Part shown: positions 32,000 to 62,125 of the stretch, one piece after another | Numbering within the stretch: position 1 is the first letter of the stretch | Layout of the letters: the number at the start of each line of letters is the position of its first letter | DNA from: Prochlorococcus sp. AG-409-P01 | GTDB lineage: Bacteria; Cyanobacteriota; Cyanobacteriia; PCC-6307; Cyanobiaceae | Assembly (NCBI GenBank): GCA_003215335.1 | Contig: QCKM01000002.1 | Location: 186,001-250,000, forward strand | Direction of reading: 5' to 3' | Length of the DNA stretch: 64,000 bases | Notes under the pieces: generated by a model | Seen by the model: the letters and a program-made list of their open reading frames with translations, nothing else | The model's database searches: none | Told to the model about the DNA's origin: nothing | Made by a program: the position numbers and the translations under genes

Positions 32000-32476
32000 T
32001 CATGAAAACTTGCCTAGGCGTTTGAGTATATCTTTGGCTGTTTTTGTTGGGATTGGCAGTATTGAAAGGCGATTGCCCTTTCTTATGACCGGTAGTTCTT
32101 CCTGGGTGTAAATAGATCGCATCTCTTCTAGGCTTAGCATTTCACTAAAACGACCTAGGTACTTCAATTCAACACAGTCCCAACGGGGCTTTTCTTTAAG
32201 AGATTTGGGGTCGTAGTAATTCGATTTTGGATCGAATTGAGTAGGGTCGATTAAACCTAATTTAATTATTTCCATTATTCCAACTATGCCTGGCGGTTTA
32301 CAGTTTGAGTGGTAGAAAAAAGCCTTGTCACCAATGGCCATCGTTCGCATGTAATTGCGGGCTTGGTAGTTCCTAATACCATCCCAGAGAGTTGTAGATT
32401 CTTTTTTTAGTTGCGAAATACCATAAACATCTGGTTCGCTCTTCATTAGCCAGTAGCTAGGTTCCTGTTGTGCCAT
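32000..32476 (-). CDS. EVE-domain protein (PUA-like, modified-base reader family)
   Basis: 158 aa, full-length EVE domain: SYWLMKSEPDVYG, TLWDGIRNYQARNYMRTMAIGDKAFFYHS, PPGIVGIMEI and a C-terminal LPVIRKGNRLSILPI. EVE proteins share a fold with YTH and PUA domains and bind modified nucleobases in known cases. Its first twelve codons and upstream region are the apparent source of the repeat scattered through the next 30 kb. Confidence 0.92.
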   Translation of the reverse strand: MAQQEPSYWLMKSEPDVYGISQLKKESTTLWDGIRNYQARNYMRTMAIGDKAFFYHSNCKPPGIVGIMEIIKLGLIDPTQFDPKSNYYDPKSLKEKPRWDCVELKYLGRFSEMLSLEEMRSIYTQEELPVIRKGNRLSILPIPTKTAKDILKRLGKFS

Positions 32477-32520
32477 GGGATCTCAGCGAAAATGGGTGGT
32501 TTGAGTAAAGTTTGAGTAAA
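32440..32520 (-). repeat. WLMK repeat copy 1 (EVE gene 5' end)
   Basis: Covers the start of the EVE gene, the arm TTCGCTGAGATC, and two exact tandem 11-mers GTTTGAGTAAA on the + strand (32499-32509, 32510-32520), 22 bp before the ATG. All later copies share parts of this sequence, so this is the reference copy. Confidence 0.85.
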
Positions 32521-32552
32521 CCCTAAATCTAAGCGTTTCAGCTCTCTACCTA

Positions 32553-33125
32553 TTATCTGAAAGATCTGCAAACAGGGCTTTTTCTGTAGGGAGATGTCCT
32601 GCAAATTTCTTTTAGTTCTTTAGTTGTTTTCTTTGACCAGTCGGTAATAGGTGGGTTTTCATAAGGGTTAAGCCCTTTATCTCTACCTTGAGTGTCTTGC
32701 GGTCCTTGGCTATAGGGCATACGGAAGTTGGGGTATGGCAAAGCATCTTGTCTTTTCCAGCGAAATAGAGCTTTTACAAAGTTTTTTTGAGCCCCTCGAT
32801 TAGCAAAAAGGAAGAGGGCCTGTTTTTCTTTGCCGTTATTTCCTCTATAAGTGATGTAGTTGTAGTATTCGCCGCCATCTATGTCATTTCTATATTTTAT
32901 GTACTGAGAAGCTTGAATCCCTCCTTGACCCTCAACCCACATTCCTGGCCCCTGAAATCGAACCCTACATTTGTTTTTTAACCAACGACACCAAGCATCG
33001 TGATAACTCTTAGGCCCATCTTTAAAAAGTTCTTCTGGGAAATCAGCATCTCCAAAGTCAGCAAAGGCTGGGCTAAATAAAGATGCAAAAAATGGAAGAA
33101 GAATCAAAGCATGTTTTGATTTCAT
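32553..33125 (-). CDS. Secreted small protein, paralogue of the gene at 52168
   Basis: Signal peptide LILLPFFASLFSPAFA, then GDADFPEEL, YHDAWCRWLKNKCRVRFQG and a charged RGNNGKEKQALFLFANRGAQKNFVKALFRW. The same order (YDAWCGSIRNKSCKVKFRG; SGKTRIALIRF) occurs in the gene at 52168-52665. Start at MKSKHALI (33125), 1 bp after the upstream gene's stop. Function unknown; periplasmic or exported location predicted. Confidence 0.75.
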   Translation of the reverse strand: MKSKHALILLPFFASLFSPAFADFGDADFPEELFKDGPKSYHDAWCRWLKNKCRVRFQGPGMWVEGQGGIQASQYIKYRNDIDGGEYYNYITYRGNNGKEKQALFLFANRGAQKNFVKALFRWKRQDALPYPNFRMPYSQGPQDTQGRDKGLNPYENPPITDWSKKTTKELKEICRTSPYRKSPVCRSFR

Positions 33126-33126
33126 A

Positions 33127-33369
33127 TTATTGAACTCCTCCGTCAACGCACCAGAAATATGTGCTGTATTCCTTTTTGTTTCTTGTAGTGGCTAATGCCC
33201 CTTCTTCCTGGCATTGGTCCATAGAGGCCATTGGCATGGAAACAGAGGACATTGAACCATATACTCCAGGCCCTCTAGAGAAAGCCAGCACTAAATGAAC
33301 AGCTGGATCGGCTGCTTGAACAGGGATGGAAAATGTCAATAAAAGTGGTGCAAGAAGTAAGCGGCGCAT
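33127..33369 (-). CDS. Small secreted Cys-containing protein (80 aa)
   Basis: Signal peptide MRRLLLAPLLLTFSIPVQA, then a short mature part with two cysteines (DQCQEEG; YFWCVDGG). Similar in size and plan to the products at 33731 and 52668 (signal peptide, a MS-TMEEC-like middle, a Cys near the C-terminus). It forms a two-gene unit with the downstream secreted protein. A truncated copy of its promoter and signal peptide lies at 41868-42040. Confidence 0.7.
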   Translation of the reverse strand: MRRLLLAPLLLTFSIPVQAADPAVHLVLAFSRGPGVYGSMSSVSMPMASMDQCQEEGALATTRNKKEYSTYFWCVDGGVQ

Positions 33370-33435
33370 GGTTGGTTCTTTTCCCCTTGTCTAGTTGTTC
33401 TAGATCAATATTTCACTTATTTGAAGTAAAAAGGA

Positions 33436-33579
33436 GTTTGAGTAAAGTTTGAGTAAATCTCCACGATTCGCCGAGAGCACTTGCTATCACTCAAATGCCT
33501 CTTTTCATTAGCCAGTAGTTAATTTCCTGTTGTGCCATGGGCTTTCAGCGATATTGCGATGTGTGGATGATGTGTGGAT
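33436..33579 (-). repeat. WLMK repeat copy 2, complete
   Basis: On the - strand: a tandem ATCCACACATC pair (33558-33579), the arm CAATATCGCTGAAAGCCC, a 15-codon micro-ORF (33491-33538) encoding MAQQEINYWLMKRGI, the arm CTCTCGGCGAATC and two tandem GTTTGAGTAAA 11-mers (33436-33457, + strand reading). The second pair is about 70 bp upstream of the gene at 33369; the first faces the + strand leader at 33664. Confidence 0.85.
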
Positions 33580-33663
33580 GGCTTAACATTCTCACCCTCA
33601 TTTCTTTATTCTATTTCAATCAAGTTTCTATTACTAATAACCAAAGAAAGGCTCGCATGTTTT

Positions 33664-33723
33664 ATGTCTGATGGAACGGCTGATCTTTACGCCAAAAGAA
33701 ATAAAGCTGCTAAGGCTGCATAA
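33664..33723 (+). CDS. Leader micro-ORF (19 aa) upstream of the secreted protein
   Basis: Encodes MSDGTADLYAKRNKAAKAA and stops 7 bp before the ATG of the next gene. The paralogous locus has the same leader (ending DLYAKRNQTAKAA, 52930-52977) in the same position. The alternative reading, an in-frame extension of the secreted gene (FTPKEIK..LHNSD), is also open in both copies, so which frame is used cannot be decided here. Confidence 0.45.
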   Translation: MSDGTADLYAKRNKAAKAA

Positions 33724-33730
33724 TTCAGAT

Positions 33731-33967
33731 ATGAAACGCTTCCTACTTCCACTAATTGCTGCTATTGCAGTACCTACAGCCGCCAACGCTGAAACCTATT
33801 GGTTAATCCTTTCAGGAACTAGGACTACTGCTGGTGCAATGTTGAAAGTTCCCATGTCGACCATGGAAGAATGCGAACTTGCAGGAAAAAAAGTTATGCA
33901 GAGCGACCACCACGCCAGAAATTATATGTGGGAGAGTATGAGATATATATGCGTCAAAGGCAAATAA
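33731..33967 (+). CDS. Small secreted Cys-containing protein (78 aa)
   Basis: Signal peptide MKRFLLPLIAAIAVPTAANA, mature start ETYWLILSG, cysteines in TMEECELAG and MRYICVKGK. It is a paralogue of the product at 52668 (MKRLLLPLLAGLALPTAANA, ESYWLLIG, RYYCVIGK), and their upstream 150 bp are nearly identical. Function unknown. Confidence 0.75.
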   Translation: MKRFLLPLIAAIAVPTAANAETYWLILSGTRTTAGAMLKVPMSTMEECELAGKKVMQSDHHARNYMWESMRYICVKGK

Positions 33968-33969
33968 TC

Positions 33970-34068
33970 ATGCCTATCAATAAACCCATTCCTGATTCTG
34001 TTATTAGCTTTTGGAAAAAGCAGTTTCAAAAGATCAGAGAAATAATCGTTAGACCTTCTAATAAATAA
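33970..34068 (+). CDS. Possible small protein (32 aa)
   Basis: ATG two bases after the preceding stop; encodes MPINKPIPDSVISFWKKQFQ plus a basic tail. Amphipathic and tightly spaced with the secreted gene, but too short to be sure it is real. Confidence 0.35.
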   Translation: MPINKPIPDSVISFWKKQFQKIREIIVRPSNK

Positions 34069-34690
34069 AGAACAGATCGCAACTGACAGAAAAACTCCTC
34101 AATTCCCAGGAAGCACCCTTTATTGAGAAATCTAGTGACGGCAACAGATCTGAGTTATTCGCAATTTTTCTATCCACACCATTTTCAAAACCTATCCACA
34201 CATCGCTCATTGGTCGAGTGATGCCAAGGCGGTACGTGTTTCTGCACAGAGTATTCAATCTTTCCTTTCCTCTCCGACGTTGAGGATCAATTCCAAGACT
34301 TTAGAAACCAGTTCGATGAATCAATCCATTCATCCTTCATGGTGACTTTCTGGAGAGGCGTATGAGGGAGTCATATGTCCTGCCCGTCTCGTTATATGAG
34401 CTCAGAAATTTATGCAACATTTTTAGATGTAGTAGAACTCTGGGTGATTCTCTACATTTTTATTTAGACCTTCCTTAATGTTTGTCGCCACAAATTTTTT
34501 GTATTTAGCGTAAGCAGAAACTTCACCTTTCGTATCGCCTAACTTTCCTTTCTTCACGGGTCTCTTTAATTGCCATCTAAGGAATCAGACTTTCCATCTA
34601 TTGAACCAGAGTTTGAATTAATTGGGAATAGTTTAAAAAGCTAAGACTGGGTTAAGTGATATAAAAGTAGAAACAGTAAAGTTTTTTGGA
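34069..34690. other. Degraded region with gene remnants
   Basis: No solid gene. There is a diverged pair of CTATCCACACC-like boxes (about 34168-34205) and a stretch near 34130-34150 resembling the start of the gene at 54085. The - strand frame 34423-34557 (GTG start, 44 aa, contains GKLGDTKGEVSAYAKYKKFV) looks protein-like and may be the end of a decayed gene. Confidence 0.4.
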
Positions 34691-35803
34691 TTAACTAGAA
34701 GTAAATAGTAATAATTTAGCTCTTTTGATTAGCTTTAATATTGGTAGAATTGCGAATGAGAAAAGTGGGTGATATTTATTGTATTGACTATTTATTACAC
34801 CGTATTGCTTGATTTCTTGTAAATTCGACTCATCAAGATAAGTGCCAAATAGCTTGTCCCAGAATACGAACTTCTCGCCAAAATTGCTATGAAAATGTCT
34901 TGGTTCTATAGAGTGATGGAACCAATGTAATGATGGGCTCATATATATAAAATTGATTGGTTTTGGGAATAAAACTTTTAACCCACTATGTGCTAAAACC
35001 CCCCAGGTTCTTTGTATCATTGAATCTATTAGATATATATATAGTGGGATCAAATATCCTTGCGACAAGTATTCATTTATTAATAAACCTGTGAAAATTG
35101 TAATAGGTAGAATCAGAGTTCCTTTTATGGTGTTTTCAATTGGAAGTTCCCTAAAATTATTAAGAATAGTCATCTCTGAAGCTGAATGATGAAACTCATG
35201 AAGGTCCCAAATGAAACCAACATGATGAGCAAGTCTATGGCAAAAATATTGGGCCATATCTGAAATTAGTAATGCAAAAATAAAAATACAAACAATTAAA
35301 GGCTTTGAATTTGGTAAAGGCATTATTGATTGATATATTCCATGAAACCAATCTCCTATTCCCTCATTCAAAGCAGCTAAACCTATTGTTGAAAACATTA
35401 CTAAAAATTGTAGCTGTGAGCTTAAAAGATATAGAAAGAAATACCATATATCAGCTAATTTATAGCCTTCAACGTGATTTAGCCTACCTATACTTGTCTC
35501 ATTAAATAAATTAAAAATATTATTTCTACCATTGTTCGCCGCCTCAAAAAGAGGAATTGTAAATATAGGTAGAATTAATAGGGCAAACTTTACAGTTATA
35601 GTGATGAGGATCGCAGATATGCCACCATTTTTAAGTCCATTAAGTGTGATTATATTATTGGCAATATCAAAGTTTGATGAAGGGAGTTTCTCCTGAAATT
35701 CGTGAAAACCAATAAGCAATAAACTCAATAACAATATAATTCCAGAAATATTTCTAAGAGTTTTTGGCATGAGAAAAGGTTTCTTGAGAGCCAGCCCCCT
35801 CAA
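34691..35803 (-). CDS. Fatty acid hydroxylase / sterol desaturase family membrane protein
   Basis: 370 aa with several membrane segments and the di-iron histidine motifs of the family: HRLAHH, HEFHH and HWFHH, plus a late HFHSNFG. These enzymes use O2 to hydroxylate or desaturate lipids or carotenoids; the substrate is unknown. The gene is AT-rich and sits between two WLMK repeats, so it is probably an acquired cassette. Confidence 0.88.
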   Translation of the reverse strand: MRGLALKKPFLMPKTLRNISGIILLLSLLLIGFHEFQEKLPSSNFDIANNIITLNGLKNGGISAILITITVKFALLILPIFTIPLFEAANNGRNNIFNLFNETSIGRLNHVEGYKLADIWYFFLYLLSSQLQFLVMFSTIGLAALNEGIGDWFHGIYQSIMPLPNSKPLIVCIFIFALLISDMAQYFCHRLAHHVGFIWDLHEFHHSASEMTILNNFRELPIENTIKGTLILPITIFTGLLINEYLSQGYLIPLYIYLIDSMIQRTWGVLAHSGLKVLFPKPINFIYMSPSLHWFHHSIEPRHFHSNFGEKFVFWDKLFGTYLDESNLQEIKQYGVINSQYNKYHPLFSFAILPILKLIKRAKLLLFTSS

Positions 35804-35859
35804 AATATACCTAGACGATCTAGGCGTCTAGTCAGCTATGCGTTATTTAGGAATTCCTT

Positions 35860-35969
35860 CTAATCCCTTGACATCAATGACTTATAACTGTTCATTAGCC
35901 AGGAGCTAGGTTCCTGTTGTGCCATGGGATCTCAGCAAAAATGGGTGGTTTGAATAAAGTTTGGATAGA
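35860..35969 (-). repeat. WLMK repeat copy 4
   Basis: On the - strand: tandem 11-mers (+ strand reading GTTTGAATAAA, GTTTGGATAGA at 35948-35969), arm TTTGCTGAGATC, and a 21-codon micro-ORF (35860-35925) beginning MAQQEPSSWLMNS and ending MSRD. The right arm ATGTCAAGGGATT is the reverse complement of the left arm of other copies. Confidence 0.82.
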
Positions 35970-36080
35970 TCCTCGACCTCAGCAGGGGATTTCTATTTTT
36001 TCTATCTTGGCCTATTTGTATTGAAGTTGAAGTTGCAGTTGCTTTTGAGCCATCTCTTTTAGGGGACCTTGGGGGAGCTC
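35885..36080. repeat. Direct repeat, left copy flanking the nitrite module
   Basis: About 190 bp that recur in the same orientation at 40918-41107. It includes WLMK repeat copy 4, GACCTCAGCAGGGGATTTCT, and the last 20 or so codons of the HEAT gene. Together the two copies bracket about 5 kb holding nirA and focA. Confidence 0.85.
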
Positions 36081-36731
36081 AATCAGAAGATTTGACAGGG
36101 TTGCAAGGCTATGGGGAGTGGCTATACAACTGAGGGCAAGAAGTGCTGCACGAGCTGTTGCTTCTGATCCGTTCTTAGCAATTTCTGCAATTTGTAAATT
36201 GATGGCGGTACTATTGCGCCGTTGTAAAACCCTAATGGTTGATAACACAACTGGATCGCGAAAATCTTTTAATGGTTTCTGAACAAGATCAAGAAGAATG
36301 TAATCACTGAGTTGATGAACTTTGAATTTGAGTAATTCCAAGCCAGCTAAGACAAGGGGTTGGGATTTTTCGCTTAAGACGTTCCTAAGGAGAATGATTG
36401 GAAGTTCACCTCCCCAGCAGCTAAGTGCTTGCAGAACTGGCAGCTTGAGTTGGTTCTCTTCTTTGAGCAGCTTTAGCAACCAAGTTTTTGCCTCAGGCTG
36501 ATGACAAAGTCCTGCTGCACTAATTAACTCTGGTTGAGCCCCTGCTTGTTTGATTAGTAACTCTAAAACTGGCCAACCTTTATTACTTAGTAATCCGAGT
36601 TGCTCAGTTATCGCAAAGCGAAGGTCTGTCTGAAGATTGATTGAATAAACCTCACCCAACCAGCAAGGCTCGAGGGGAACCCTGCGGGATTGGTTGAGTT
36701 TTTCCCAGATTGAGTCTTCATGGATAGCCAT
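36012..36731 (-). CDS. HEAT-repeat protein of the nitrite assimilation cluster
   Basis: 239 aa, built of Leu/Ala-rich helical repeats (LLSNKGWPVLELLIKQAG; LPVLQALSCWGGELPIILLRNVL; ATARAALLALSCIA), the pattern of HEAT/CpcE-type proteins. Some cyanobacterial nitrite loci carry an accessory gene needed for nitrite reductase (nirB/nirX); equivalence here is a guess. It starts 9 bp after the focA stop, so it is in the same transcript. Confidence 0.7.
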   Translation of the reverse strand: MAIHEDSIWEKLNQSRRVPLEPCWLGEVYSINLQTDLRFAITEQLGLLSNKGWPVLELLIKQAGAQPELISAAGLCHQPEAKTWLLKLLKEENQLKLPVLQALSCWGGELPIILLRNVLSEKSQPLVLAGLELLKFKVHQLSDYILLDLVQKPLKDFRDPVVLSTIRVLQRRNSTAINLQIAEIAKNGSEATARAALLALSCIATPHSLATLSNLLIELPQGPLKEMAQKQLQLQLQYK

Positions 36732-36740
36732 AGATAGTCC

Positions 36741-37652
36741 TTAGCGTGCACCAAGTTCTGCGGCTAGTTCTCGTTCCAGTTTTTCATCATGAACTGTTGG
36801 CAGGACATTGGACACCTTGGTGCGATGTGTGCTGTAGAAGAGCATGCCTATAAAAACCATTCCTCCAATAATGTTGCCAACAGTAACTGGCAGGAAATTC
36901 CAAAAAATAACCTTGCTGAAGGGCACTCCAGAACCAAGAAGGGGGCCTGCTGTATGCAAAAACATGTTTACAACAATGTGCTCCATGCCCATTGTTTGGA
37001 ATGCAGTAATTGGTAGCCAACAAGCAAGAAGTTTTCCTGGAACACTTTTACTTACTAGAGCCATTGTGACTCCAAGACATACTAGCCAGTTAGCAATAAC
37101 ACCTCGTATAAATGCTAGGAAAAGTCCAGTACTTCCTAGAGACTCATACTTGGTAAGAACATTTGATTGATTTATAGATATCAGCTTTGATGCAACAACG
37201 GCCCATCCTTTACCTCCTTCAGCTGCAGATAAAGGATCAATAGTTCCTGCGCTTGTCAAACTAATTGAAAGTAAAACTGCTACAAGAAATGTGCCCAAGA
37301 AATTACCTATCCAGACCCACCCCCAATTTCTAAATGTGGCTTTCCAGGAGGATTTGCCCGCCCAAGTTGCCATAGGTAATAGAGCAAAATTTCCAGTAAC
37401 TAGCTCCATACCAAAAAGCACTATGCTTGCAAATCCAAACGGGAAAATAACTGAACCAAGGAAAGGCATCCCAGATTGAATACCTACAGTTATTGCTAGA
37501 CATGTAGCTAAGCCAAGTATTGCCCCAGAGTAAAAACCTCTTACTAGCAAGTTTTTTGTACTTACAGTAGATTTTTTTCCGCCCGCTGCAATCATTCCAT
37601 CGACTAATTCATTAGGAAGGACATAATCCATTTGTGAGTTGTTTGCATCCAT
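36741..37652 (-). CDS. focA: Formate/nitrite transporter family protein, probable nitrite channel
   Basis: 303 aa with six hydrophobic helices, and the family motifs FGMELVTGNFALLP and GMEHIVVNMF. Located between nirA and a HEAT protein, which makes nitrite the likely substrate. Confidence 0.93.
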   Translation of the reverse strand: MDANNSQMDYVLPNELVDGMIAAGGKKSTVSTKNLLVRGFYSGAILGLATCLAITVGIQSGMPFLGSVIFPFGFASIVLFGMELVTGNFALLPMATWAGKSSWKATFRNWGWVWIGNFLGTFLVAVLLSISLTSAGTIDPLSAAEGGKGWAVVASKLISINQSNVLTKYESLGSTGLFLAFIRGVIANWLVCLGVTMALVSKSVPGKLLACWLPITAFQTMGMEHIVVNMFLHTAGPLLGSGVPFSKVIFWNFLPVTVGNIIGGMVFIGMLFYSTHRTKVSNVLPTVHDEKLERELAAELGAR

Positions 37653-37699
37653 GTTTGGGAAAATGATTGTGTTGGAAGATGTTTTTTAAGTTGATTGAT

Positions 37700-37843
37700 T
37701 TATCTGCTAATGCGATTCATTAGCCTTGAAAAAGGATCTTTACTTCCGCCTTGACGATCAATGAGTGGACGGTCACTCCCAAATTCACTTAGCCAATTCA
37801 CAATGCGACTAAAGAAATCAGTTGAATTAGATTTAAATTTCAT
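37700..37843 (-). CDS. Small protein between nirA and focA (47 aa)
   Basis: Encodes MKFKSNSTDFFSRIVNWLSE and a basic remainder ending in LMNRISR. It begins 40 bp after the nirA stop on the same strand, inside the nitrite operon. Unrecognised; its position suggests an accessory role. Confidence 0.6.
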   Translation of the reverse strand: MKFKSNSTDFFSRIVNWLSEFGSDRPLIDRQGGSKDPFSRLMNRISR

Positions 37844-37883
37844 AGAGAAGTTAACAAATGATTGTGGTTTTGGTAAAAGCAGC

Positions 37884-39488
37884 TTATGGAGAACGACTGC
37901 TTTTACCTAACTGCCGAATCCAATCAATAATCTGCTTTAAAGCAATAAATTTCTCAGAGAAATTCTTGGTCTTTGGAATTGCAGAGTAATTTTCAATCAA
38001 TAATTTTTTCAATAGATTCTTTAATTCAGCAGTAGGAACTGATTTATGTATTAACTCTCCTATCTTTTGATTTGGTCCTTGCTCTCCTCCAATTGATATG
38101 TCATAAGCCTCAATCATTTTCCCATCAGCATTTCTGGCTTTTGTCCCGGTTAGGCCTATTGCTCCCATATAGGCTTGACCACAACTATTGGGACACCCTG
38201 TCCAGTGAATCTTTAGTTCTTCAGGTAAATCAATTTCTGAGTCAAGCTCTTTAGATACCTTTAGAGCCTGATCTTTAGTATTTGTCAAAGCAAAACTGCA
38301 GTAGGTATTACCTGTACATGAGACAGTCCCTGCCGCTATTGTTTTTGGGCGGAGGGGAAATTTCTTTAATAGAGGATCAGCTTTAAAACTCTCAATCTGC
38401 TTGTCTGGGATATTAACTATGATCACATTTTGATCTTCAGTAAGACGAAGTTCACTGCTCCCATATGTTGCACTTATGCTGGCTAAATCTTGAATTTCTT
38501 CTGCTGAAAGCCGACCTACTGGAATATGTAGGCCTGCATAGTTAAGACCTAACTGCTTTTGAGGATGAACTCCAAAGAAAGAACGTGGTTTTTGTGAAAA
38601 AATAGAACCAGGATCTGGAGTAAGTGTTCCAAATTTTTCTTGAACATTATCCCTGAAATTTTCTACGCCAACTTTATTTAAATAGAACCTAAATCGTCCT
38701 TTAGGCCGTTGATAACGTTCTCCATCATCGCGCCAACTAGATATAACTACCCCTGTGAAATGACATATTTCATGTGGTTTAACCCATACATTAAGAGGAA
38801 TAGCGTAATCATTTAATTGAGAAGAAAGAATCCCTCCAACCCAAACACTAAAACCAAGCTCTCCTTCTTTTATAACTGGATGGAAAATAATGTCATTGTG
38901 CAAAAGAAAGTTGTCATGTGAACCTGCTACTGCAGTGTTCCATTTTCTTGGCAAATTAGAGAATTCAGAATTTCCTTCTCCATTCTTAGTCAAGTAATTA
39001 TCCAACTCCAATGTATATGGCCTGGTATCTATAATTTCATTCGGATCGATTCCTGCTAATGGATTACCTGTGACATTTCTTGGGTTATCAAACCCTGATT
39101 GGATGGTTTCTATATCAGCATCTTTTAGACGTCTAAGAATTTCAGGTAGGTCACTAATAAGAATCCCACGGAGTTGGAGATTTTGCCTTGTAGTGATATC
39201 GCAACTTCCATCTTCTGCATAACGAGCAACAATAGATGCAATTACATTTAATTGATGTGCATTTAGTATTCCATTAGTTATTCGTAAACGGAGCATAAAT
39301 TTTCCTGGTGTTTTAGGCCGCCAGAACATTCCATACCATTTCAAGCGAAGCTCTAAGTCGATTTTGTCCATTTTCTCCCAACCAATCTTGGCCAATTCTT
39401 CTATTTCTCTGCCCAATAGGAGCCCATCTTTCAGGGCCTTATTCTTTTCTATTTTATTTAATTTCTTCCCTTCTAAATACGGTTTCAT
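37884..39488 (-). CDS. nirA: Ferredoxin-nitrite reductase
   Basis: Six-electron reduction of nitrite to ammonium using siroheme and a 4Fe-4S cluster. The sirohaem/cluster motif TGCPNSCGQAYMGAIGLTGTK and the upstream GTVSCTGNTYC supply the cysteine ligands; the substrate-site region TTRQNLQLRGI is present. 534 aa, full length. No nitrate reductase gene is in the window, fitting a nitrite-only user or a distant narB. Confidence 0.97.
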   Translation of the reverse strand: MKPYLEGKKLNKIEKNKALKDGLLLGREIEELAKIGWEKMDKIDLELRLKWYGMFWRPKTPGKFMLRLRITNGILNAHQLNVIASIVARYAEDGSCDITTRQNLQLRGILISDLPEILRRLKDADIETIQSGFDNPRNVTGNPLAGIDPNEIIDTRPYTLELDNYLTKNGEGNSEFSNLPRKWNTAVAGSHDNFLLHNDIIFHPVIKEGELGFSVWVGGILSSQLNDYAIPLNVWVKPHEICHFTGVVISSWRDDGERYQRPKGRFRFYLNKVGVENFRDNVQEKFGTLTPDPGSIFSQKPRSFFGVHPQKQLGLNYAGLHIPVGRLSAEEIQDLASISATYGSSELRLTEDQNVIIVNIPDKQIESFKADPLLKKFPLRPKTIAAGTVSCTGNTYCSFALTNTKDQALKVSKELDSEIDLPEELKIHWTGCPNSCGQAYMGAIGLTGTKARNADGKMIEAYDISIGGEQGPNQKIGELIHKSVPTAELKNLLKKLLIENYSAIPKTKNFSEKFIALKQIIDWIRQLGKSSRSP

Positions 39489-39864
39489 GGTTCAGATGTT
39501 TAATGCTATTGATTTTGTGTAAGAAAAGAGAATAATAAATTGAGGAATATTTCAGGCGTATAAATTTTTTGAGGCTAGGACTCTATTCATCTCAAAGGAC
39601 TGAAGTTCATCTACTATTAATGCATTTAAGAGCTCAATCTATATGTATCAGATTAAACAAAAATGGAAATTTCTGGAATTTAGAATTTAGTGTACTTAGA
39701 TACAGAATTATTACAGCCAAGATGAGTTTTGATTGATTGACTCATCTAAAGCATTGCTAATCTGCTATTTCTAGAGCAGATTAGAAGATTAGGCTATGTA
39801 TATTTAGATACAAGAAAATAGTCATTTAGTTCTTTTATCTCTCTTCAGAACCTAAATCGAAAAG
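39489..39864. promoter_or_regulatory. nirA upstream region with a possible NtcA site
   Basis: AT-rich 376-bp region. On the - strand GTT-N8-TAC at 39658-39645 is one mismatch from the NtcA consensus GTA-N8-TAC, about 157 bp before the nirA ATG; TA-rich -10 candidates follow. Nitrogen control is expected for nirA, but the site itself is weak. Confidence 0.4.
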
Positions 39865-40095
39865 CTAATACTGACGACCCACTTCGCCAAACCAACGTAT
39901 TGAACCTTCCAATAGCATTTTCCAAACTTTCTTCATTGCAGCAATGTCTCTATCTAGTCCATTATTAAAATTACTGGGGTGGCTTAAATTATTTATTTGC
40001 TCAGAAGGTCTTGTTGTTAATGTTCTTCTTGATTTTGACCTATAGAGGCGGCTGACCATTCTAAGCCCTTTTCCTGAAAATAAATTTATGACCAT
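39865..40095 (-). CDS. Hypothetical basic protein (76 aa)
   Basis: Arg/Lys-rich N-terminus (MVSRLYRSKSRRTLTTRPSEQ after an internal Met at residue 13, a likely start) and a C-terminal amphipathic KKVWKMLLEGSIRWFGEVGRQY. No domain recognised. Confidence 0.5.
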   Translation of the reverse strand: MVINLFSGKGLRMVSRLYRSKSRRTLTTRPSEQINNLSHPSNFNNGLDRDIAAMKKVWKMLLEGSIRWFGEVGRQY

Positions 40096-40256
40096 TAGAG
40101 CAGAGACCCATATTATTCATATGTTGCAGTTGCTACAAAAAACAATATTCTATCAAAGTATCCCTTTCTTAAATAAGGTTAGCCCTTGATTGAAAAGTTA
40201 GATTTAGATCATTGGCTTGTGTTTAGAATTGTTTGACTTGGAGGGACCCATTGTAA

Positions 40257-40673
40257 TTATTCTTTCGAGAAATAATCTAAATCAGCTTCTAGCATGCTTT
40301 GATTATCTTCATTTGAGCAGCATCTGTACATAAGATTAATAATACGTTGTGGATCAATTTTAAGAGCTGCAACCTCATTCCATAGTTTGCGAGTCAGTTC
40401 ATCATTCGCGAGATTAAATTGTGCATTAATAATATCCCTTGCTAACGAGAAGACTTTTTTATTAGCCTCAGAGCTGTAAGGCTTATTAGTATTATTAGTA
40501 GATCCTTTTGACAAGTATTTGCTGCCACGGTAGATCAAATTATTTTGAACCTTAGATATTAATTGTCTTTTTTGATTGTAAATGCTTCGCCTGTACTTTA
40601 ATTGGACAGATTTTTTATACACAATTTCTTTGTGTTGGGTATATTTGTTGCCACGATAAAGAAGTTTTTCCAT
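40257..40673 (-). CDS. DUF4278-like protein with two YRGxxY motifs
   Basis: 138 aa. MEKLLYRGNKYTQH at the N-terminus and NNLIYRGSKYLSKG near residue 46 match the repeated YRG-x-x-Y signature of the small cyanobacterial DUF4278 family; the C-terminal half is helical and acidic. Function unknown. Confidence 0.65.
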   Translation of the reverse strand: MEKLLYRGNKYTQHKEIVYKKSVQLKYRRSIYNQKRQLISKVQNNLIYRGSKYLSKGSTNNTNKPYSSEANKKVFSLARDIINAQFNLANDELTRKLWNEVAALKIDPQRIINLMYRCCSNEDNQSMLEADLDYFSKE

Positions 40674-40790
40674 TGTTTAGAGATTGAAGATGGTCAAAGA
40701 ACATTTCTTGGACTTGATTAAGAGGCTCTTTGAGGAATAAGTCTGAATGCGCTTTAACCATATGCCCTTTTTATTGATAGCTCCTATGGA

Positions 40791-40856
40791 CTAAAGATGT
40801 AGTTCATAAGGGCACAAAAAATGGCTTTTTGTCTTTTCTTCCTCCATTTTCACCAT
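40791..40856 (-). CDS. Leader micro-ORF at the outer end of WLMK repeat copy 5
   Basis: 21 codons starting MVKMEEEKTKS directly after the repeat sequence TAGAGAA. The same start (MVKM/MVKI) follows the repeat at 45861 and 51270, so the repeat carries its own translation start into the cassette. Confidence 0.35.
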   Translation of the reverse strand: MVKMEEEKTKSHFLCPYELHL

Positions 40857-41005
40857 TTCTCTAGTTTGGATAGAAATTCCTAATTCGCTGAGATCGGTTG
40901 ATATCACCTAAAGGGAACTTTCCATTGGCCAGTAGCTAGGTTCCTGTTAAGCCAGGGAATCTCAGCGAAAATGGGTGGTTTGAATAAAGTTTTGATAGAT
41001 CCTCG
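40854..41005 (-). repeat. WLMK repeat copy 5, complete palindrome
   Basis: On the - strand the left arm TTCGCTGAGAT and right arm ATCTCAGCGAA are exact inverted partners around a core GCTACTGGCCAATGGAAAG. The ATG of the micro-ORF is lost here (CCCTGGCTTAA), so this copy is non-coding but the palindrome is kept. 11-mer boxes lie on both outer sides. Confidence 0.82.
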
Positions 41006-41818: not shown

Positions 41819-41867
41819 CTGTCCAAAGTTCTCCAATGAATGCCTTATGGTTGCCAGATACAACCCT

Positions 41868-42040
41868 TTTGAGTGATAGCAAGTGCTCTCGGCGAATCGT
41901 GGAGATTTACTCAAACTTTACTCAGACTCCTTTTTACTTCAAATAAGTGGGATATTGACCTAGAACAACTAGACAAGGGAAAAACAACCAATCATGCGCT
42001 GCTTACTTCTTGCCCCACTTTTATTGACATTTTCCATCAA
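41868..42040 (+). pseudogene. Truncated copy of the secreted-protein promoter and signal peptide
   Basis: About 170 bp nearly identical to the reverse complement of 33325-33490: repeat arm CTCTCGGCGAATC, tandem TTTACTCAAAC boxes, the 5' leader, and the first 15 codons (from ATG at 41994) of the gene at 33369. Similarity stops inside the signal peptide. The right half of a WLMK repeat is included (copy 6). Confidence 0.85.
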
Positions 42041-42047
42041 AGAAAAC

Positions 42048-44528: not shown

Positions 44529-44572
44529 TCCTTTCGACTCACTGAGTGATGGGGATCACTAACGACGTATTC

Positions 44573-52167: not shown

Positions 52168-52665
52168 TTAGTTTTCTATTTTTATAGTCGGCCCTGTGCC
52201 TCTTAGTTTTATCCCTGACCAATTTTCCAAGTCTCTTCTGAATTGATTTGAGCGCGCTTCATGCGAAAACCTAATCAAGGCAATCCGAGTTTTTCCTGAG
52301 GAGGCTTTGTATGTAATCCAAAAATGGTTCTGACAGCTAGGCCTGCCAAACCTTTGAGAAATTGGCACGCAGAGTGCTCCATGATCTGATCTGTTTTGCT
52401 CTGAGTCTCTGTTAATCATGAACAGGAGCCATTTTTGAGAAATTTCTAAAACCTGATCTTGTAAAACTCCAGTTCCATCATTAACGATTATTCTTTGCCC
52501 CCTGAATTTCACTTTGCAGGACTTATTTCTAATGCTTCCACACCAAGCGTCATAAATTCTTTTGGAGACAATGCTTCCTTCCATTCCATCTTCTGCATCT
52601 CCTAACCCAGCCCAGGAAGGCGAGAAAAGACCAATCAGAAGAGGGAGTAGCAGTAAGCGACGCAT
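52168..52665 (-). CDS. Secreted small protein, paralogue of the gene at 32553
   Basis: Signal peptide MRRLLLLPLLIGLFSPSWA, then GDAEDGMEG, YDAWCGSIRNKSCKVKFRGQ, and SGKTRIALIRFSHEARSNQF. 165 aa, ending TGPTIKIEN. Located 2 bp after the upstream secreted gene, the same order as 33369-32553. A piece of a third copy lies at 61148-61225. Confidence 0.75.
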   Translation of the reverse strand: MRRLLLLPLLIGLFSPSWAGLGDAEDGMEGSIVSKRIYDAWCGSIRNKSCKVKFRGQRIIVNDGTGVLQDQVLEISQKWLLFMINRDSEQNRSDHGALCVPISQRFGRPSCQNHFWITYKASSGKTRIALIRFSHEARSNQFRRDLENWSGIKLRGTGPTIKIEN

Positions 52666-52667
52666 GA

Positions 52668-52922
52668 TTATTTGCCTATGACGCAGTAATACCTGAGGTT
52701 ATCTATAAAATTATCCCTGAAGGATTTAGTAGATGGGTTGTTTCTGTCAGTGAGCTTTTTGCCCTCACTTTCACACGTTGCAAGGCTCTTCATTTCTATC
52801 TTTTCTAAGGTTGCCCCGCCGTAACTATTTTTGCCTACGCCTATAAGTAGCCAATAACTTTCAGCATTAGCGGCAGTGGGTAGAGCTAGTCCAGCAAGTA
52901 ATGGAAGTAGTAAGCGCTTCAT
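52668..52922 (-). CDS. Small secreted Cys-containing protein (84 aa)
   Basis: Signal peptide MKRLLLPLLAGLALPTAANA, then ESYWLLIGVGKNS; cysteines in LATCESEGK and RYYCVIGK. Paralogue of 33731-33967 with a nearly identical upstream region and leader ORF. First gene of a secreted pair. Confidence 0.75.
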   Translation of the reverse strand: MKRLLLPLLAGLALPTAANAESYWLLIGVGKNSYGGATLEKIEMKSLATCESEGKKLTDRNNPSTKSFRDNFIDNLRYYCVIGK

Positions 52923-52929
52923 ATCTGAA

Positions 52930-52977
52930 TTATGCAGCTTTTGCCGTTTGATTTCTTTTGGCGTAAAGGTCAGGCAT
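52930..52977 (-). CDS. Leader micro-ORF (15 aa), paralogue of 33664-33723
   Basis: MPDLYAKRNQTAKAA, stopping 7 bp before the secreted gene's ATG. Against the other copy, two of the differing codons are synonymous and two change residues. An in-frame extension of the downstream gene is the competing reading. Confidence 0.45.
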   Translation of the reverse strand: MPDLYAKRNQTAKAA

Positions 52978-53069
52978 GTCATCAGATATAAAACATGCTT
53001 CTCTTGCTTTGGTTATTAGTAATAGAAACTTGATTGAAATAGAATAGAAATAAGAGGGCGAGAATGTTA

Positions 53070-53225
53070 AGCCATCCAAACACCATCCACACATCGCAAT
53101 ATCGCTAAAATCCCATGGCACTACAGGAACCTAACTACTGGCTAATGAAAAGTTATAAACCATTGATACCAAGGGATTAGAAGGAATTCACAAATCCTGT
53201 TCAAACTCTGTTCAAACTTTTTCAA
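53070..53225 (+). repeat. WLMK repeat copy 13
   Basis: ATCCAAACACC/ATCCACACATC boxes, left arm CAATATCGCTAAAATCCC, a 21-codon micro-ORF (53115-53180) beginning MALQEPNYWLMKS and ending IPRD, right arm TTGATACCAAGGGATTAG, and TTCAAACTCTGTTCAAAC boxes. The micro-ORF has the same length as that of copy 4. Confidence 0.85.
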
Positions 53226-54324: not shown

Positions 54325-55257
54325 TTAAGCGGCTAAATTCCTAAACCGTGTGAACTGTGGTTCAAATAGGAGTTTCACAGTACCGAGTGGACCATTTCTG
54401 TGCTTGCAAGTGATCAGTTCTGTAATTCCTCGATCAATTGTCTCAGGGTCGTAGTACTCATCTCGATAAATCATCACCACCATGTCCGCATGACTTTCGA
54501 GTGAATGTGTTTCTCGCAAGTCACAAAGCATGGGACGTTTGTTTCTTCGATGCTCAACAGCTCGACTGAGTTGAGACATCACGATGACTGGGACCTGCAA
54601 AGTGCTGGCCATCTGCTTTAGATCACTAATGATTTTCCCCAGTTCTACTTCTCGAGAATCAAGGTATTTCTGACCATCCATCAGATGGACATAGTCAACA
54701 ACAACCAGCCCTAGAGACTTCTTTGTTGTCTCTTGAATTTGTTGGCATTTAGCCAGCATCTCTTCAACTGTGATTGTGGGTTTACCACTGATAAAAATTG
54801 GTGCTTGGCCAAGAGTATCGACCCCTTTCCCAAGGATTGGCCATTCGTCTTGTGCTATTCGCCCTGTCCTCAACCTTCCTGTTTCAATCCCAACTTCCAT
54901 CGACAGAAGTCGGTAGGTGTATTGCGCTTGGCTCATCTCTAAACCAAAAATGCAAACAGGGAGATCATGAATCTGGGCAACATTCTTTGCCATGTTGAGG
55001 CAGATGGATGTTTTGCCCATCGCTGGCCTACCAGCAACAACAATTAAAGAACCTCTTTGCAGACCTTGAGTCATCGCATCAAAGTCGTAGAAATTGACTG
55101 GAACTCCAGCAACGGATGTCCCTAAAGAGCGACTTTCAATTTCGTTAAAGACTGAACTCAGGATTTCTGCTGCTGCTGCCAGTTCTTCTGGATGCTTTGC
55201 TTGTTTAGTTCCTTGAAGCTCGAGTTTCTTGCTCTTCTTCTTCCCCTTTTTCGCCAT
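54325..55257 (-). CDS. DnaB-like helicase core domain without the N-terminal domain
   Basis: 310 aa. Basic start MAKKGKKKSKKLELQGTKQA, then the RecA-like domain: Walker A VVAGRPAMGKTS (near residues 74-84), Walker B LGLVVVDYVHLM, SQLSRAVEHR and late DLRETHSLESHADMVVMIYR. Replicative DnaB is about 450 aa or longer with a DnaG-binding N-terminal domain, absent here. All ATPase motifs are intact. It leads an operon of seven tiny, mostly membrane, proteins; a mobile-element replication relic is likely. Confidence 0.88.
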   Translation of the reverse strand: MAKKGKKKSKKLELQGTKQAKHPEELAAAAEILSSVFNEIESRSLGTSVAGVPVNFYDFDAMTQGLQRGSLIVVAGRPAMGKTSICLNMAKNVAQIHDLPVCIFGLEMSQAQYTYRLLSMEVGIETGRLRTGRIAQDEWPILGKGVDTLGQAPIFISGKPTITVEEMLAKCQQIQETTKKSLGLVVVDYVHLMDGQKYLDSREVELGKIISDLKQMASTLQVPVIVMSQLSRAVEHRRNKRPMLCDLRETHSLESHADMVVMIYRDEYYDPETIDRGITELITCKHRNGPLGTVKLLFEPQFTRFRNLAA

Positions 55258-57451: not shown

Positions 57452-57838
57452 TTATTTGCTTTCAGGAGCCACCTTGGCTTCGAGGGTAAATGTGACGCTC
57501 TCATTAGGGTTGAAGCGATCAACTAACGATTGAAGCTCTTCTTTTAATTCACCTTCTGAAATCACATCTATCGACTCTTGAGCGATGGCATCCTTCCATG
57601 CTTTGTCGATGAGTTTTTCTAATGCTGCGGCTTTGATTCTTGAAATGCCTACCTGCTGAAGAATGACTGGCTTAGGGACCTTGCCTGGCCGAAAGCCTGG
57701 AAGTCTTACAGAACTACCCATACGTGCTAAGGCAGCTTCATAACTTGATTTGCAGCGATCTTCTGGCACCTCAATCTCCACAGCTACACGGTTGTCGGCC
57801 AACTCATTGACTTTTACCTTCAATGCCTGTTCGCTCAT
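57452..57838 (-). CDS. Isolated trigger-factor N-terminal (ribosome-binding) domain
   Basis: 128 aa matching only the first domain of trigger factor: LKVKVNELADNRVAVEIEVP, the ribosome-docking GFRPGKVPKPVI and VTFTLEAKVAPESK at the end. Full trigger factor is about 430-480 aa; PPIase and substrate arms are absent, ended by a normal stop. It may bind ribosomes as a stand-alone or competing factor. Confidence 0.85.
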   Translation of the reverse strand: MSEQALKVKVNELADNRVAVEIEVPEDRCKSSYEAALARMGSSVRLPGFRPGKVPKPVILQQVGISRIKAAALEKLIDKAWKDAIAQESIDVISEGELKEELQSLVDRFNPNESVTFTLEAKVAPESK

Positions 57839-58917: not shown

Positions 58918-59613
58918 TTATAAAGCTTCACTCTTGTTCCCATTCTCATTCAGTTGATCCATAGTTGCCTTCTCTCCAATGAATTTATTCAGATCTTCTG
59001 GTGGCAGCCAACTTCTATTAGCCCCATTCTTAAAAGCAAAGCGTAGGAATTCCGCTGCGTATTGGATCCGGAGTCGTCGGCTTGCTGAGCCAGGTTCTCC
59101 TCCATGACGTTCGACAAGGGTTTTTAAAACCGAGTAGCCACTAGCCACAGAAGTTTCGCAGGTAAGGATAAGCAATGTGCGTGCAATAGGAGTTCGGTAG
59201 TTTCGGTTCCAAACTCGTGATCCTTTCTTCCCACTACTTGTTTTATGTGATTTAAATTTTCTGGCTAATTGCTCCCAGTCGAGCGCACCATTTAATCCAG
59301 ACCCGTTCTTTTTCTTCACTAGTTCATAGGCTTCAGCTAAACCCTTTCCTTCAGATTTCATTATTAGCGAAATGTCTGTGGAGATTTTCAATATCCATCC
59401 GGCACTTGCTCCTACCCATGGAACAAAATCTGGATTGTTCTTTGCCTTTGGCCCAAGAACAATGCTGGTTCGGGTGCCATCCTCAAAACGAACTGTTAGC
59501 TGAACCTTTTGAACCAGACCTTTCCCTATGCCGCGGACCATCCATCCCTTGCCACATTCCTTTCGAATTTCTTCGCGGAGGGAGGTAATCCATTTCGAAG
59601 GCTTATCGGGCAT
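58918..59613 (-). CDS. Truncated tyrosine recombinase (N-terminal and core-binding part)
   Basis: 231 aa beginning MPDKPSKWITSLREEIRKEC and containing RLRIQYAAEFLRFAFKNGAN and SWLPPEDLNKFIGEKA, the segment that in marine picocyanobacterial integrases leads into the catalytic domain. The protein ends 20 residues later, so the R...HxxR...Y active site is missing. Probably inactive, a relic of a mobile element that built part of this island. Confidence 0.68.
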   Translation of the reverse strand: MPDKPSKWITSLREEIRKECGKGWMVRGIGKGLVQKVQLTVRFEDGTRTSIVLGPKAKNNPDFVPWVGASAGWILKISTDISLIMKSEGKGLAEAYELVKKKNGSGLNGALDWEQLARKFKSHKTSSGKKGSRVWNRNYRTPIARTLLILTCETSVASGYSVLKTLVERHGGEPGSASRRLRIQYAAEFLRFAFKNGANRSWLPPEDLNKFIGEKATMDQLNENGNKSEAL

Positions 59614-59798: not shown

Positions 59799-59869
59799 TT
59801 AGAGCTTCAATAGTGTGAATAGAGTGTGACGGGGTTTTGCGAATTCCTTGTCATCGCTTTCAGCGACTC

Positions 59870-59970
59870 AAATGTACTTATTCATTGGCCAGTGTTGATT
59901 TCTGTCATATCAAGGGGTTTGGGCGAAGACAGGTGGTTTGAATAAAGTTTGGATAGACCCTCGATATTCT
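59870..59970 (-). repeat. WLMK repeat copy 14, frameshifted
   Basis: On the - strand: CTATCCAAACTTTATTCAAA boxes, arm CCCCTTGATATGACAG, then ATCAACACTGGCCAATGAAT: the micro-ORF is shifted after MTEIN. Right arm CGCTGAAAGCG. Confidence 0.65.
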
Positions 59971-60216: not shown

Positions 60217-60294
60217 TAAAAAGCTAGCTGTTTTCTTCCCTAGGTACCTATGAGTTCCAGGTCCTTAGTAATGCAAGTTTGAATAGAAAGTTCT

Positions 60295-60410
60295 GATTAG
60301 CTGAGATCGGTTGCTGTCAAATAAAAGGAATTTTTTATTAACCAGTAGCTGATACTAGTTATGTCAAGGGATTTGAGAGAGAGTGATCGGTTTGGTTAAG
60401 GTTTTAGTAA
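60295..60410 (-). repeat. WLMK repeat copy 15, degraded
   Basis: On the - strand: arm AAATCCCTTGACATAAC, core CAGCTACTGGTTAATAAAAA, right arm CGATCTCAGCTAATCAG, box CTATTCAAACTT. No micro-ORF start. Confidence 0.7.
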
Positions 60411-60464
60411 ACCCTTGTTATTTTTTCTGAGGGCTGCATGAACTAATTCCTATTCAGTCCAGAT

Positions 60465-60659: not shown

Positions 60660-60849
60660 TAACAAATGAACTTACCTTCTATTAGATACATAGTTAGGAG
60701 TTTCAATTTTGGAATGGGGACAAATACTCTTTATGTGCAAATAAATACTCTTTAGCTTGCTCTCCATCTAGGAATAGGCCTCTTAGATTGACCACAAAGG
60801 CTATGCGGAATCATAATTTCTCTGGCTTGGAAAAATTGTGGATAAAAAT

Positions 60850-60975
60850 CCCCGACTCGCTGAGGCCGGTTGCTATCACTTAAAGGAAAGTTTTTATTAA
60901 CAAGTGGCTGATATTAGTTATGTCAAGGGATTTGAGTAGAAATCGGCGGTTTTGAGAAAAGTTTGGGTAAATCTT
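60850..60975 (-). repeat. WLMK repeat copy 16, degraded
   Basis: On the - strand: TTTACCCAAACTTTTCTCAA boxes, arm AAATCCCTTGACATAAC, core CAGCCACTTGTTAATAAAAA, right arm GGCCTCAGCGAGTCGG. No micro-ORF. Confidence 0.65.
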
Positions 60976-61147
60976 CGATCTGAGGGTTCTAGTTGCTGCC
61001 ATTCTTCCTCAGGTAATTAACTTTGGAAAGAATCGGATGCTTGCTCGAACAGTTCCAGGAAGTTGCCCATTAAGGCTTGCCAAAGAGGAGAAAAGGCAAA
61101 GCGCAAAGGGTTAAGCCTGAGATAAGCAAAAAAATGAGAAAGATGTT

Positions 61148-61225
61148 TTGGCGCATGATTAGCTCAGGTTTCTATTTTTATAGTCGGCCATGCGCTTCTC
61201 AGTTTTTGCACTGACCAAAAACTGA
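61148..61225 (-). pseudogene. 3' remnant of the secreted-protein family
   Basis: TTTCTATTTTTATAGTCGGC and flanking bases match the 3' end of the gene at 52168 (encoding ...PTIKIEN), same strand; the rest of the gene is missing. Confidence 0.65.
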
Positions 61226-61355
61226 GTTGACAAGGCCACAATCCACCTGTAGAACAGATGTACTATTACAGGCTTATGGCTCCATCTGCTTCCCCGTACG
61301 CGGTTTTTAAGGCTGAGGACTGGATGGGTCCAGCGGCTCCTATTGGACTAGGTCA

Positions 61356-61637
61356 ATGCGTAAGAGTCAGGCCAAAAAAACGTTACCCCAAAAGCGGTTC
61401 AACGATGCCGAGGAGTGGGATTATCTCGAAGATGGAATACTCAAAAAAAACCGTTCAGCTTGCGTTTGCATGACGTGCCAGCACTTCAATTATTGCTGTG
61501 ACAAGCATTGCCGAACTCTTCTTGCCTGCCACATTCAGCAGAAGCTGATACCCCACGGGGAGCACCTGACTTCCAGGTGTCCCCTATGGCAGCAGCGACG
61601 GGAGAAAGAGATTGGATGGTGTCCAGAGGCCGCTTGA
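61356..61637 (+). CDS. Cys-rich hypothetical protein, possible zinc binder (93 aa)
   Basis: KKTLPQKRFNDAEEWDYLED, then CVCMTCQHFNYCCDKHCRTL and LIPHGEHLTSRCPLW, ending WCPEAA. The eight or more cysteines with two histidines suggest metal binding. Preferred over the other + frame because of this ordered pattern. Confidence 0.6.
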   Translation: MRKSQAKKTLPQKRFNDAEEWDYLEDGILKKNRSACVCMTCQHFNYCCDKHCRTLLACHIQQKLIPHGEHLTSRCPLWQQRREKEIGWCPEAA

Positions 61638-61678
61638 TTTCCTTTAGTCCTTTTGAACCTAGGTTCTTGTCTTTATAT

Positions 61679-61852
61679 CTACTGGTCGACTTGAATGATG
61701 TCGTAGTACGGACGGTCTTCGTAGTCAGCATCTGAGCAGCACATGTCTCGGTAGATCTCCTCCAGTAAGTCGTAGGCATCTTCGTAGTTGTCGAATTCTT
61801 GAGATGTGATGTTGTCTTCTTCTCCATCGTGCCTGGTTATGCGATAGGTCAT
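61679..61852 (-). CDS. Small acidic protein (57 aa), intact paralogue of 48208-48387
   Basis: MTYRITRHDGEEDNITSQEF, then EEIYRDMCCSDADYEDRPYY. Starts 13 bp after the upstream small gene. The paralogue at 48208 is broken by a stop codon. Confidence 0.65.
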   Translation of the reverse strand: MTYRITRHDGEEDNITSQEFDNYEDAYDLLEEIYRDMCCSDADYEDRPYYDIIQVDQ

Positions 61853-61865
61853 TTTTTAGTACTTG

Positions 61866-61979
61866 CTATGTCTCCATGTCGACAGGACCGGCATTTTGCT
61901 CGTATTCATAAGTAAGTAGAGAATCCCTATTCTTTTCTTTGATTTCTTCTTGATTGGTGAGTGACTTTGATTTTGCCAT
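61866..61979 (-). CDS. Small acidic protein (37 aa) started by the repeat
   Basis: MAKSKSLTNQEEIKEKNRDS, then LLTYEYEQNAG. Homologue of 51270-51392 and, like it, begins at the end of a WLMK repeat. Confidence 0.6.
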   Translation of the reverse strand: MAKSKSLTNQEEIKEKNRDSLLTYEYEQNAGPVDMET

Positions 61980-61984
61980 TTTCC

Positions 61985-62125
61985 TCATTTCATAAGTTTG
62001 GAAAGAAATTCCTGATTTATTGAGACCGGTTGGTGCCCCTCATTGGGAAGTTTCCATTAGCCAGCAGTTGATTTCGGCCATGTCAAAGTATTTGGGCGGC
62101 AATGGTTGGTTTTAATAAAGTTTGA
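61985..62125 (-). repeat. WLMK repeat copy 17
   Basis: On the - strand: boxes CAAACTTTATTAAAAC, arm AAATACTTTGACATGG, micro-ORF 62040-62081 encoding MAEINCWLMETSQ, right arm GGTCTCAATAAATCAGGAAT, then CTTTCCAAACTTATGAAATG. Confidence 0.8.

Follow-up and report, generated by a model that had tools for sequence, protein, structure and literature searches.

Repeats ahead of an EVE-domain gene in Prochlorococcus as probable attachment sites of serially integrated small mobile units

We analyzed a 64,000-nucleotide stretch of the genome of Prochlorococcus sp. AG-409-P01 (contig QCKM01000002.1, positions 186,001 to 250,000; hereafter the window), in which copies of a short repeat separate small gene sets, or cassettes, next to a gene for an EVE-domain protein. 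Very probably, these repeats are attachment sites that remained as small mobile units integrated one after another at the 5′ end of the EVE gene. Comparison with relatives, using one genome per species, yielded a target gene, an empty site, a fixed polarity, homology breakpoints at the repeat core and an integrase linked to the site, besides shared cassettes and matching arm sites. We therefore regard the locus as an array built by accretion at an attachment site in a protein gene, most of its cassettes being without an integrase; its effect is like that of an integron, yet it is neither an integron nor a tRNA-directed tycheposon.

The repeat family and its target gene

A profile built from the copies comprises 152 positions, which we divided into a left part (P5, 1-68), a core (69-83) and a right part (P3, 84-152). 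Searched with nhmmer against the whole window, it recovered 15 copies (E 6e-38 to 4e-7), all within 32427-62127, and zero copies in positions 1-32000; seven weaker copies lie past the window end, reaching 15.9 kb beyond it. Copies are up to 90-98% similar over about 100 bp. The 15-bp core CTACTGGCTAATGAA occurs 18 times at ≤3 mismatches, against 2.25 expected in shuffled sequence, and none of 100 shuffles reached 18. A first-pass annotation, made by a model from the letters of this DNA, had proposed a family of at least fifteen copies in both orientations around a constant core. The profile recovers 15 of its 16 listed positions (E ≤ 4e-7) and both orientations, but the copy listed at 45.84 kb is a short fragment of one arm (E 5.6) and was left out of the count; the core is nearly rather than strictly constant, since only five copies are identical over all 15 bases. 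The annotation further held that the repeat is not of tRNA, insertion sequence or CRISPR type. This agrees with our results, and a known RNA family is likewise excluded, no Rfam model covering the repeat: the only Rfam matches, ATPC and Glutamine-II, fall outside the repeats, and the window contains zero tRNA genes.

The copy at 32.44 kb (32427-32524, minus strand; P5 and core only, model positions 2-98; nhmmer E 1e-24) is the start of an intact EVE-domain protein gene (32000-32476, minus strand; PF01878, E 7.3e-53), and the motif YWLMK is the N-terminal motif of that protein. P5 therefore consists of the EVE promoter and first ~10 codons, and the P3 half is not EVE sequence. The EVE gene was present in 50 of 50 genomes searched. 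With one copy of the repeat as query, 65 of 201 family genomes gave a match, and an exact 20-mer search among named genomes yielded 21 stretches, each belonging either to Prochlorococcus or to a single-cell genome of closely related Synechococcaceae.

Outside the window, 185 of 188 copies lie at or upstream of the EVE gene and on its strand; one is inverted (genome G030) and two lie elsewhere (G051). The EVE-proximal element of G030 also holds an inverted P5 half. The EVE-nearest copy usually matches only the 5′ part of the model, because the right half there is the EVE gene itself. Copies at random positions amid conserved gene order, which the annotation had named as evidence against an exchange function, were not the pattern in relatives, where copies occupy one locus and gene content varies. 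The annotation overlooked that the adjoining EVE gene, through its 5′ end, is the source of the repeat, which is an attachment site, and that the polarity of the array is fixed.

The same distribution bears on the idea that the repeat is a miniature inverted-repeat transposable element or another transposable repeat inserted many times, once ahead of the EVE gene. A short dispersed repeat with inverted arms, found in both orientations in the window, would fit such an element. Yet copies in relatives lie at essentially one locus and in one orientation, one half of the repeat corresponds to the beginning of a conserved protein gene, and what moves is not the repeat but the DNA lying between two repeats. 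We give this explanation next to no chance.

Polarity and the empty site

In four array-less relatives with larger genomes, the EVE gene follows murD at a distance of -3 to 128 nt. In 17 array genomes that carry both genes on one contig, murD lies 25-171 kb upstream of EVE, for instance 25 kb in G085, 55 kb in G151, 100 kb in G010 and 171 kb in G030. The farther a repeat lies from EVE, the more decayed it tends to be (pooled rho -0.45, p 2e-11), and the correlation is negative in 13 of 13 islands. Taken together, the empty site and the decay gradient indicate that the array grew between murD and EVE, from the EVE side. Median repeat spacing in well-filled arrays is 1.2-3.4 kb. Across 26 array genomes, similarity of the EVE 5′ end was unrelated to similarity of the EVE body (rho 0.03), a pattern suggesting that the P5 of the EVE gene is itself exchanged during integration.

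In the window, repeats run on the minus strand at 32.4-41.0 and 59.8-62.1 kb and on the plus strand at 41.9-53.2 kb. This mixed orientation is particular to the window genome, and a local inversion is the reading we favor. A 793-bp inverted duplication (43804-44596 and 62205-62997, 82% alike), whose first copy lies within the inverted block, could have served as a substrate of such an inversion.

Breakpoints, shared cassettes and arm sites

Ends of blastn alignments between islands fell within 20 nt of a core 293 times, compared with 49 times at random positions (maximum 88). Homology on the upstream side ends just past the core, and homology on the downstream side begins just ahead of it. Whole units are common to different genera from core to core at up to 95-98.6% identity, in genomes whose EVE proteins are only 58-74% identical to that of the window. 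The nitrite unit, consisting of nirA, a transporter and a HEAT-like open reading frame (ORF), also occurs in the arrays of G030, G051 and G045 (91-93% over ~5 kb) and is more distantly matched in G064. In G014, a CobW/phosphoesterase cassette matches that of the window from core to core at 95% identity over 2705 bp, and 10 genomes have this gene set flanked by repeats.

At their outer ends, P5 and P3 bear 11-bp arm sites arranged in tandem and of several types, including TATTCAAACTT, CATTCCAACTC, CATCCACACAC and CATACCAGCAC. Arm sites match across one unit, that is, between the P3 of one repeat and the P5 of the next (mean score 12.8; 45% at ≥14). Within one repeat the mean score was 9.3, with 12% at ≥14, and random pairs gave 9.0 (p 0.0017 and 4e-7). 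Matching within units and not within repeats is what a core crossover between circles of the form P5-core-P3 predicts.

These observations decide between the two suggestions of the first-pass annotation, namely the exchange site of a cassette-shuffling system and a repeat family that drives homologous recombination. Core breakpoints, cassettes shared core to core and the cognate recombinase described below uphold the former, whereas the latter is unnecessary for the main pattern; overall, the earlier interpretation is partly supported. If the repeats were passive patches of homology, duplicated EVE 5′ ends between which RecA-dependent recombination shuffles genes, their similarity of 90-98% over about 100 bp would suffice for some homologous exchange, and the inversion in the window could have this origin. 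Nevertheless, breakpoints are concentrated in the 15-bp core instead of being spread over the repeat, arms match across cassettes, not within repeats, the array has a single polarity with a gradient from EVE, and an integrase is linked to the site. We therefore regard passive homology as very unlikely to account for the locus.

Inverted arms and folding

The annotation had described the arms TTCGCTGAGATC and GATCTCAGCGAA as inverted partners. This holds for the consensus, where folding is strong (z -7.5), whereas in single copies just 48% of the arm positions pair. The palindrome raises the question of an integron-type system, in which folded single-stranded attC sites would be recombined by an IntI-like enzyme with the EVE 5′ end acting as attI. 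An array of small cassettes, one non-palindromic entry site and a palindromic consensus that folds would all suit such a system. We nonetheless rejected attC-like folding: a single copy yields a folding z of just 0.42, arm pairing is poor, and the inverted arms displayed no covariation over 132 full copies. Moreover, the crossover is central, not at the base of a stem, and arm sites outside the inverted half-sites suit an integrase acting on double-stranded DNA, which leaves the integron explanation extremely unlikely. Pairing of the inner inverted arms across a cassette likewise gave no signal (0.485 versus 0.471), the cassette signature being confined to the outer tandem arm sites. The inverted arms are best read as two half-sites flanking the crossover, not as an attC-like or conserved hairpin.

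A candidate recombinase

Clustering of island ORFs brought out a protein of 503-517 aa that falls below the cut-off of the Pfam integrase model. It matches an integrase family in PHROGs (phrog_1, E 1e-13), and Foldseek searches with its predicted structure (pLDDT 75) placed Cre, XerA, XerH and Tn1549 Int at the top (E 5e-7 and up). By predicted fold, the protein is thus a divergent tyrosine recombinase. A search for PF00589 gave zero matches inside EVE islands because this integrase family is too divergent. Candidate catalytic residues Lys368, Arg453 and Tyr485 are invariant in the clade. At position 286 (L135 numbering, alignment A2), the EVE-targeting clade reads TGMSPEE, and the distant relatives L154 and L155 have Arg.

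The integrase is tightly linked to the site. In a 400-genome search, a repeat lies at most ~60 bp upstream of the start codon in 16 of 16 clade members with upstream sequence on the contig (in one of them, L145, the match covers mainly the 5′ half of the repeat), and integrase relatives below 48% identity have no repeat upstream. Of the 24 genomes in which EVE shares a contig with the integrase or a remnant of it, all 24 have this gene or remnant upstream of EVE and in the same orientation. Ahead of each integrase, the arm sites form almost perfect tandem repeats whose sequence tracks the integrase N-terminal domain (rho 0.57, permutation p 0.0005). The partial correlation with this domain is 0.58 given the catalytic domain, and the reverse is -0.27. 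As arm sequence follows the N-terminal domain, this domain is most likely the part that reads the arm sites.

About 30 genomes encode a stand-alone N-terminal half of a tyrosine recombinase (215-232 aa, 70-92% identical; relatives L165-L194), in most cases immediately downstream of a repeat, and this protein may act as a regulator that occupies arm sites. The window encodes one of 231 aa with no catalytic domain (58918-59613, minus strand, downstream of the full repeat at 59812-59962), which shares up to 41% identity with the N-terminal half of integrases of 418-448 aa. The EVE-adjoining element of G030 contains an integrase together with a complete Hma defence system (HmaA, HmaB and HmaC; L055, L056).

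Other candidate enzymes were considered. A ~390-aa tyrosine recombinase of most genomes was set aside, being also present in array-less genomes and unlinked to the locus. Serine recombinases were absent from the islands; one lies 7 kb outside, within the window. A viral origin was rejected too: the exact site was absent from viral contigs, the site from phage records, and integrase relatives from both.

Several further recombinases were noted. The distant integrase relatives L206 and L208 lie ~100 bp after a putative rpsD (named by eye from the protein start) and have similar tandem arm sites upstream (TACTCAAACTTTACTCAAACTC), and the integrase family may thus use several protein genes as targets. 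Four genomes have a separate tyrosine recombinase of 321-327 aa (L209-L211, L213) right next to tRNA-Thr(GGT), and in one of them tRNA-Thr is duplicated; this family possibly represents a tRNA-directed, tycheposon-like class. A tyrosine-recombinase fragment lies near 98 kb in G051, beside the repeat pair distant from EVE.

Proposed mechanism

In the model we propose, a unit would be a circle bearing P5-core-P3, in which P5 duplicates the start of the EVE gene (promoter and initial ~10 codons), CTACTGGCTAATGAA forms the core, P3 holds the inverted partner half-site, and tandem 11-bp arm sites occupy the outer edges of P5 and P3. The divergent tyrosine recombinase, encoded in a few units just downstream of P3, would cross the unit core with the core in the EVE gene. 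The unit would thereby enter upstream of EVE, its P5 becoming the new EVE promoter and N-terminus, so that the EVE gene would stay intact as its start is replaced. The old P5, joined to the P3 of the unit, would form a new repeat, and repeated integration would build a polar array with the youngest unit adjoining EVE. Most units lack an integrase and would be either mobilized in trans or decayed remains.

Several points weigh against this model. Excision, the circular intermediate, action in trans and the route between cells are steps that we infer, and homologous recombination could have added to later reshuffling. The position of the first catalytic arginine (TGxR) is Ser throughout the EVE-targeting clade. 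The 400-genome search found no intact integrase of the clade in the window genome, whose array instead holds a DnaB-type helicase and the 231-aa integrase N-terminal half; the helicase gene also occurs in integrase-bearing units elsewhere. A second small cluster of two repeat copies lies far from EVE on contig 1 of G051 (71-94 kb; L062, L063), and some inter-repeat intervals are large and mixed, such as 53-60 kb of the window.

A broader proposal is offered tentatively, as a possibility on which we would not rely. The EVE locus might be a lineage-wide cassette exchange platform of Prochlorococcus, equivalent to integrons in function, where a single integrase family with interchangeable arm-binding domains at the N-terminus would move many small integrase-less cassettes in trans between cells and swap the EVE promoter and N-terminus at each event, under regulation by the conserved stand-alone N-terminal domain binding arm sites without cutting.

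Organization of the array in the window

The EVE-nearest cassette (32442-33518, minus strand) contains two small ORFs (197 and 80 aa) with no Pfam match; a related unit occurs in G030 (85% over 1.1 kb). The full repeat behind it (33435-33581, minus, E 6e-38) has a P3 arm pair, TTTACTCAAACTTTACTCAAAC, identical to the P5 arm pair at the EVE gene (match score 22), and this shared pair marks the EVE-proximal cassette. The following cassette (33504-35905, minus) carries a fatty-acid hydroxylase-like gene (PF04116) and a 98-aa ORF; a repeat copy lies at 35847-35974 (minus, E 1e-30). The nitrite cassette (35891-40935, minus) comprises the ferredoxin-nitrite reductase gene nirA (37884-39488; NF007125, E 1e-251), a formate/nitrite-family transporter gene (focA, 36741-37652; TIGR00790, E 7e-42), the HEAT-like ORF and a DUF4278 ORF, and is followed by a repeat at 40863-41004 (minus, E 9e-35).

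The inverted block (41867-53218, plus strand) includes seven repeat copies on the opposite strand: a P3 half alone (41867-41928, E 2e-10), a core with P3 (45466-45538, E 1e-13), full repeats at 47326-47474 (E 6e-35) and 53071-53218 (E 3e-35), further repeats at 48497-48594 (E 9e-25) and 51129-51263 (E 7e-29), and a weak one at 51980-52035 (E 4e-7). The cassette at 48511-51194 (plus) encodes a CobW_C-like protein and two phosphoesterase-like ORFs, according to Pfam. Beyond the block lies the DnaB-type helicase gene (54325-55257, minus; PF03796, E 2.5e-86), whose product is without the DnaB N-terminal domain. Four minus-strand repeats follow within the window, namely the full repeat at 59812-59962 (E 6e-31) and copies at 60275-60415 (E 5e-25), 60826-60976 (E 1e-23) and 61994-62127 (E 8e-25). 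The island also contains a Glutamine-II riboswitch at 45734-45788 (minus; RF01704, 35.3 bits) and an ORF at 57452-57838 (minus) with the trigger factor N-terminal domain alone (PF05697, E 5e-27).

Comparison with known systems

The tandem ssrA islands of Dehalococcoides are the closest described system: many lie within 100 kb of one target gene with direct repeats of its end between them, some with and many without an integration module, and they carry adaptive cargo (PMC3146451). In those islands, a serine recombinase targets the tmRNA gene at its 3′ end. In the EVE array, the linked enzyme is a tyrosine recombinase with arm sites, the target is a protein gene at its 5′ end, units are smaller, and promoter and N-terminus are exchanged. 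In the accretion of cis-mobilizable, integrative and conjugative, or integrative and mobilizable elements, integrase-less units that keep attL and attR are stacked by further integrations at one site (PMC5704250). The EVE array resembles this in the direct repeats of the target-gene end that flank its units, the known empty site, and the coexistence of units with and without a cognate integrase, although in the EVE array the units are much smaller and there are many more of them. The EVE-array proteins examined included no products of conjugation genes.

Like integrons, the locus has an entry site at one end and a polar array of small cassettes with recombination sites between them; unlike integrons, it shows no conserved attC-type fold, a central crossover, and no integrase gene at the entry site. 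The integrase genes lie inside cassettes, next to P3, although the IntI signature itself was not searched for. In SXT-type integration at the 5′ end of prfC, the element gives its target gene a new promoter and N-terminus, but an SXT-type element is one large conjugative element, whereas the EVE locus is an array of small cassettes.

With tycheposons, as described in a secondary source, the system shares Prochlorococcus hosts, a tyrosine recombinase, nutrient cargo and island remodelling, and it is set apart by its EVE gene target from the tRNA targets described there (PMC10872708). The EVE integrase differs from the integrases of 321-327 aa that are linked to tRNA-Thr in the same genomes, and no tRNA was found beside EVE-clade integrases. 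The literature searched, from which the original tycheposon paper was missing, contained no description of an EVE-targeted array, and a prior mention is possible. Islands such as MIT9312 ISL5 have been described without an EVE-targeting mechanism. The early island paper of Coleman, from 2006, reportedly mentions a short repeated element in a Prochlorococcus island.

Significance

No photosynthetic organism is more abundant than Prochlorococcus, and gene gain and loss in the hypervariable islands of its streamlined genome pose a long-standing question to which tRNA-directed tycheposons have been the main answer so far. At the EVE locus, which spans 25-171 kb in the complete genomes examined, the target, the site structure and the enzyme can be identified, and the cargo includes nitrite assimilation and a complete Hma phage-defence system. 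The locus renders gene turnover testable, for cassettes can be read core to core in any genome, their age can be ordered outward from EVE, and ocean data can be screened for junction reads. That arm sites match integrase N-terminal domains suggests a simple code pairing each enzyme with the cassettes it moves, and the EVE gene itself appears as a conserved gene whose promoter and N-terminus are repeatedly replaced by mobile DNA.

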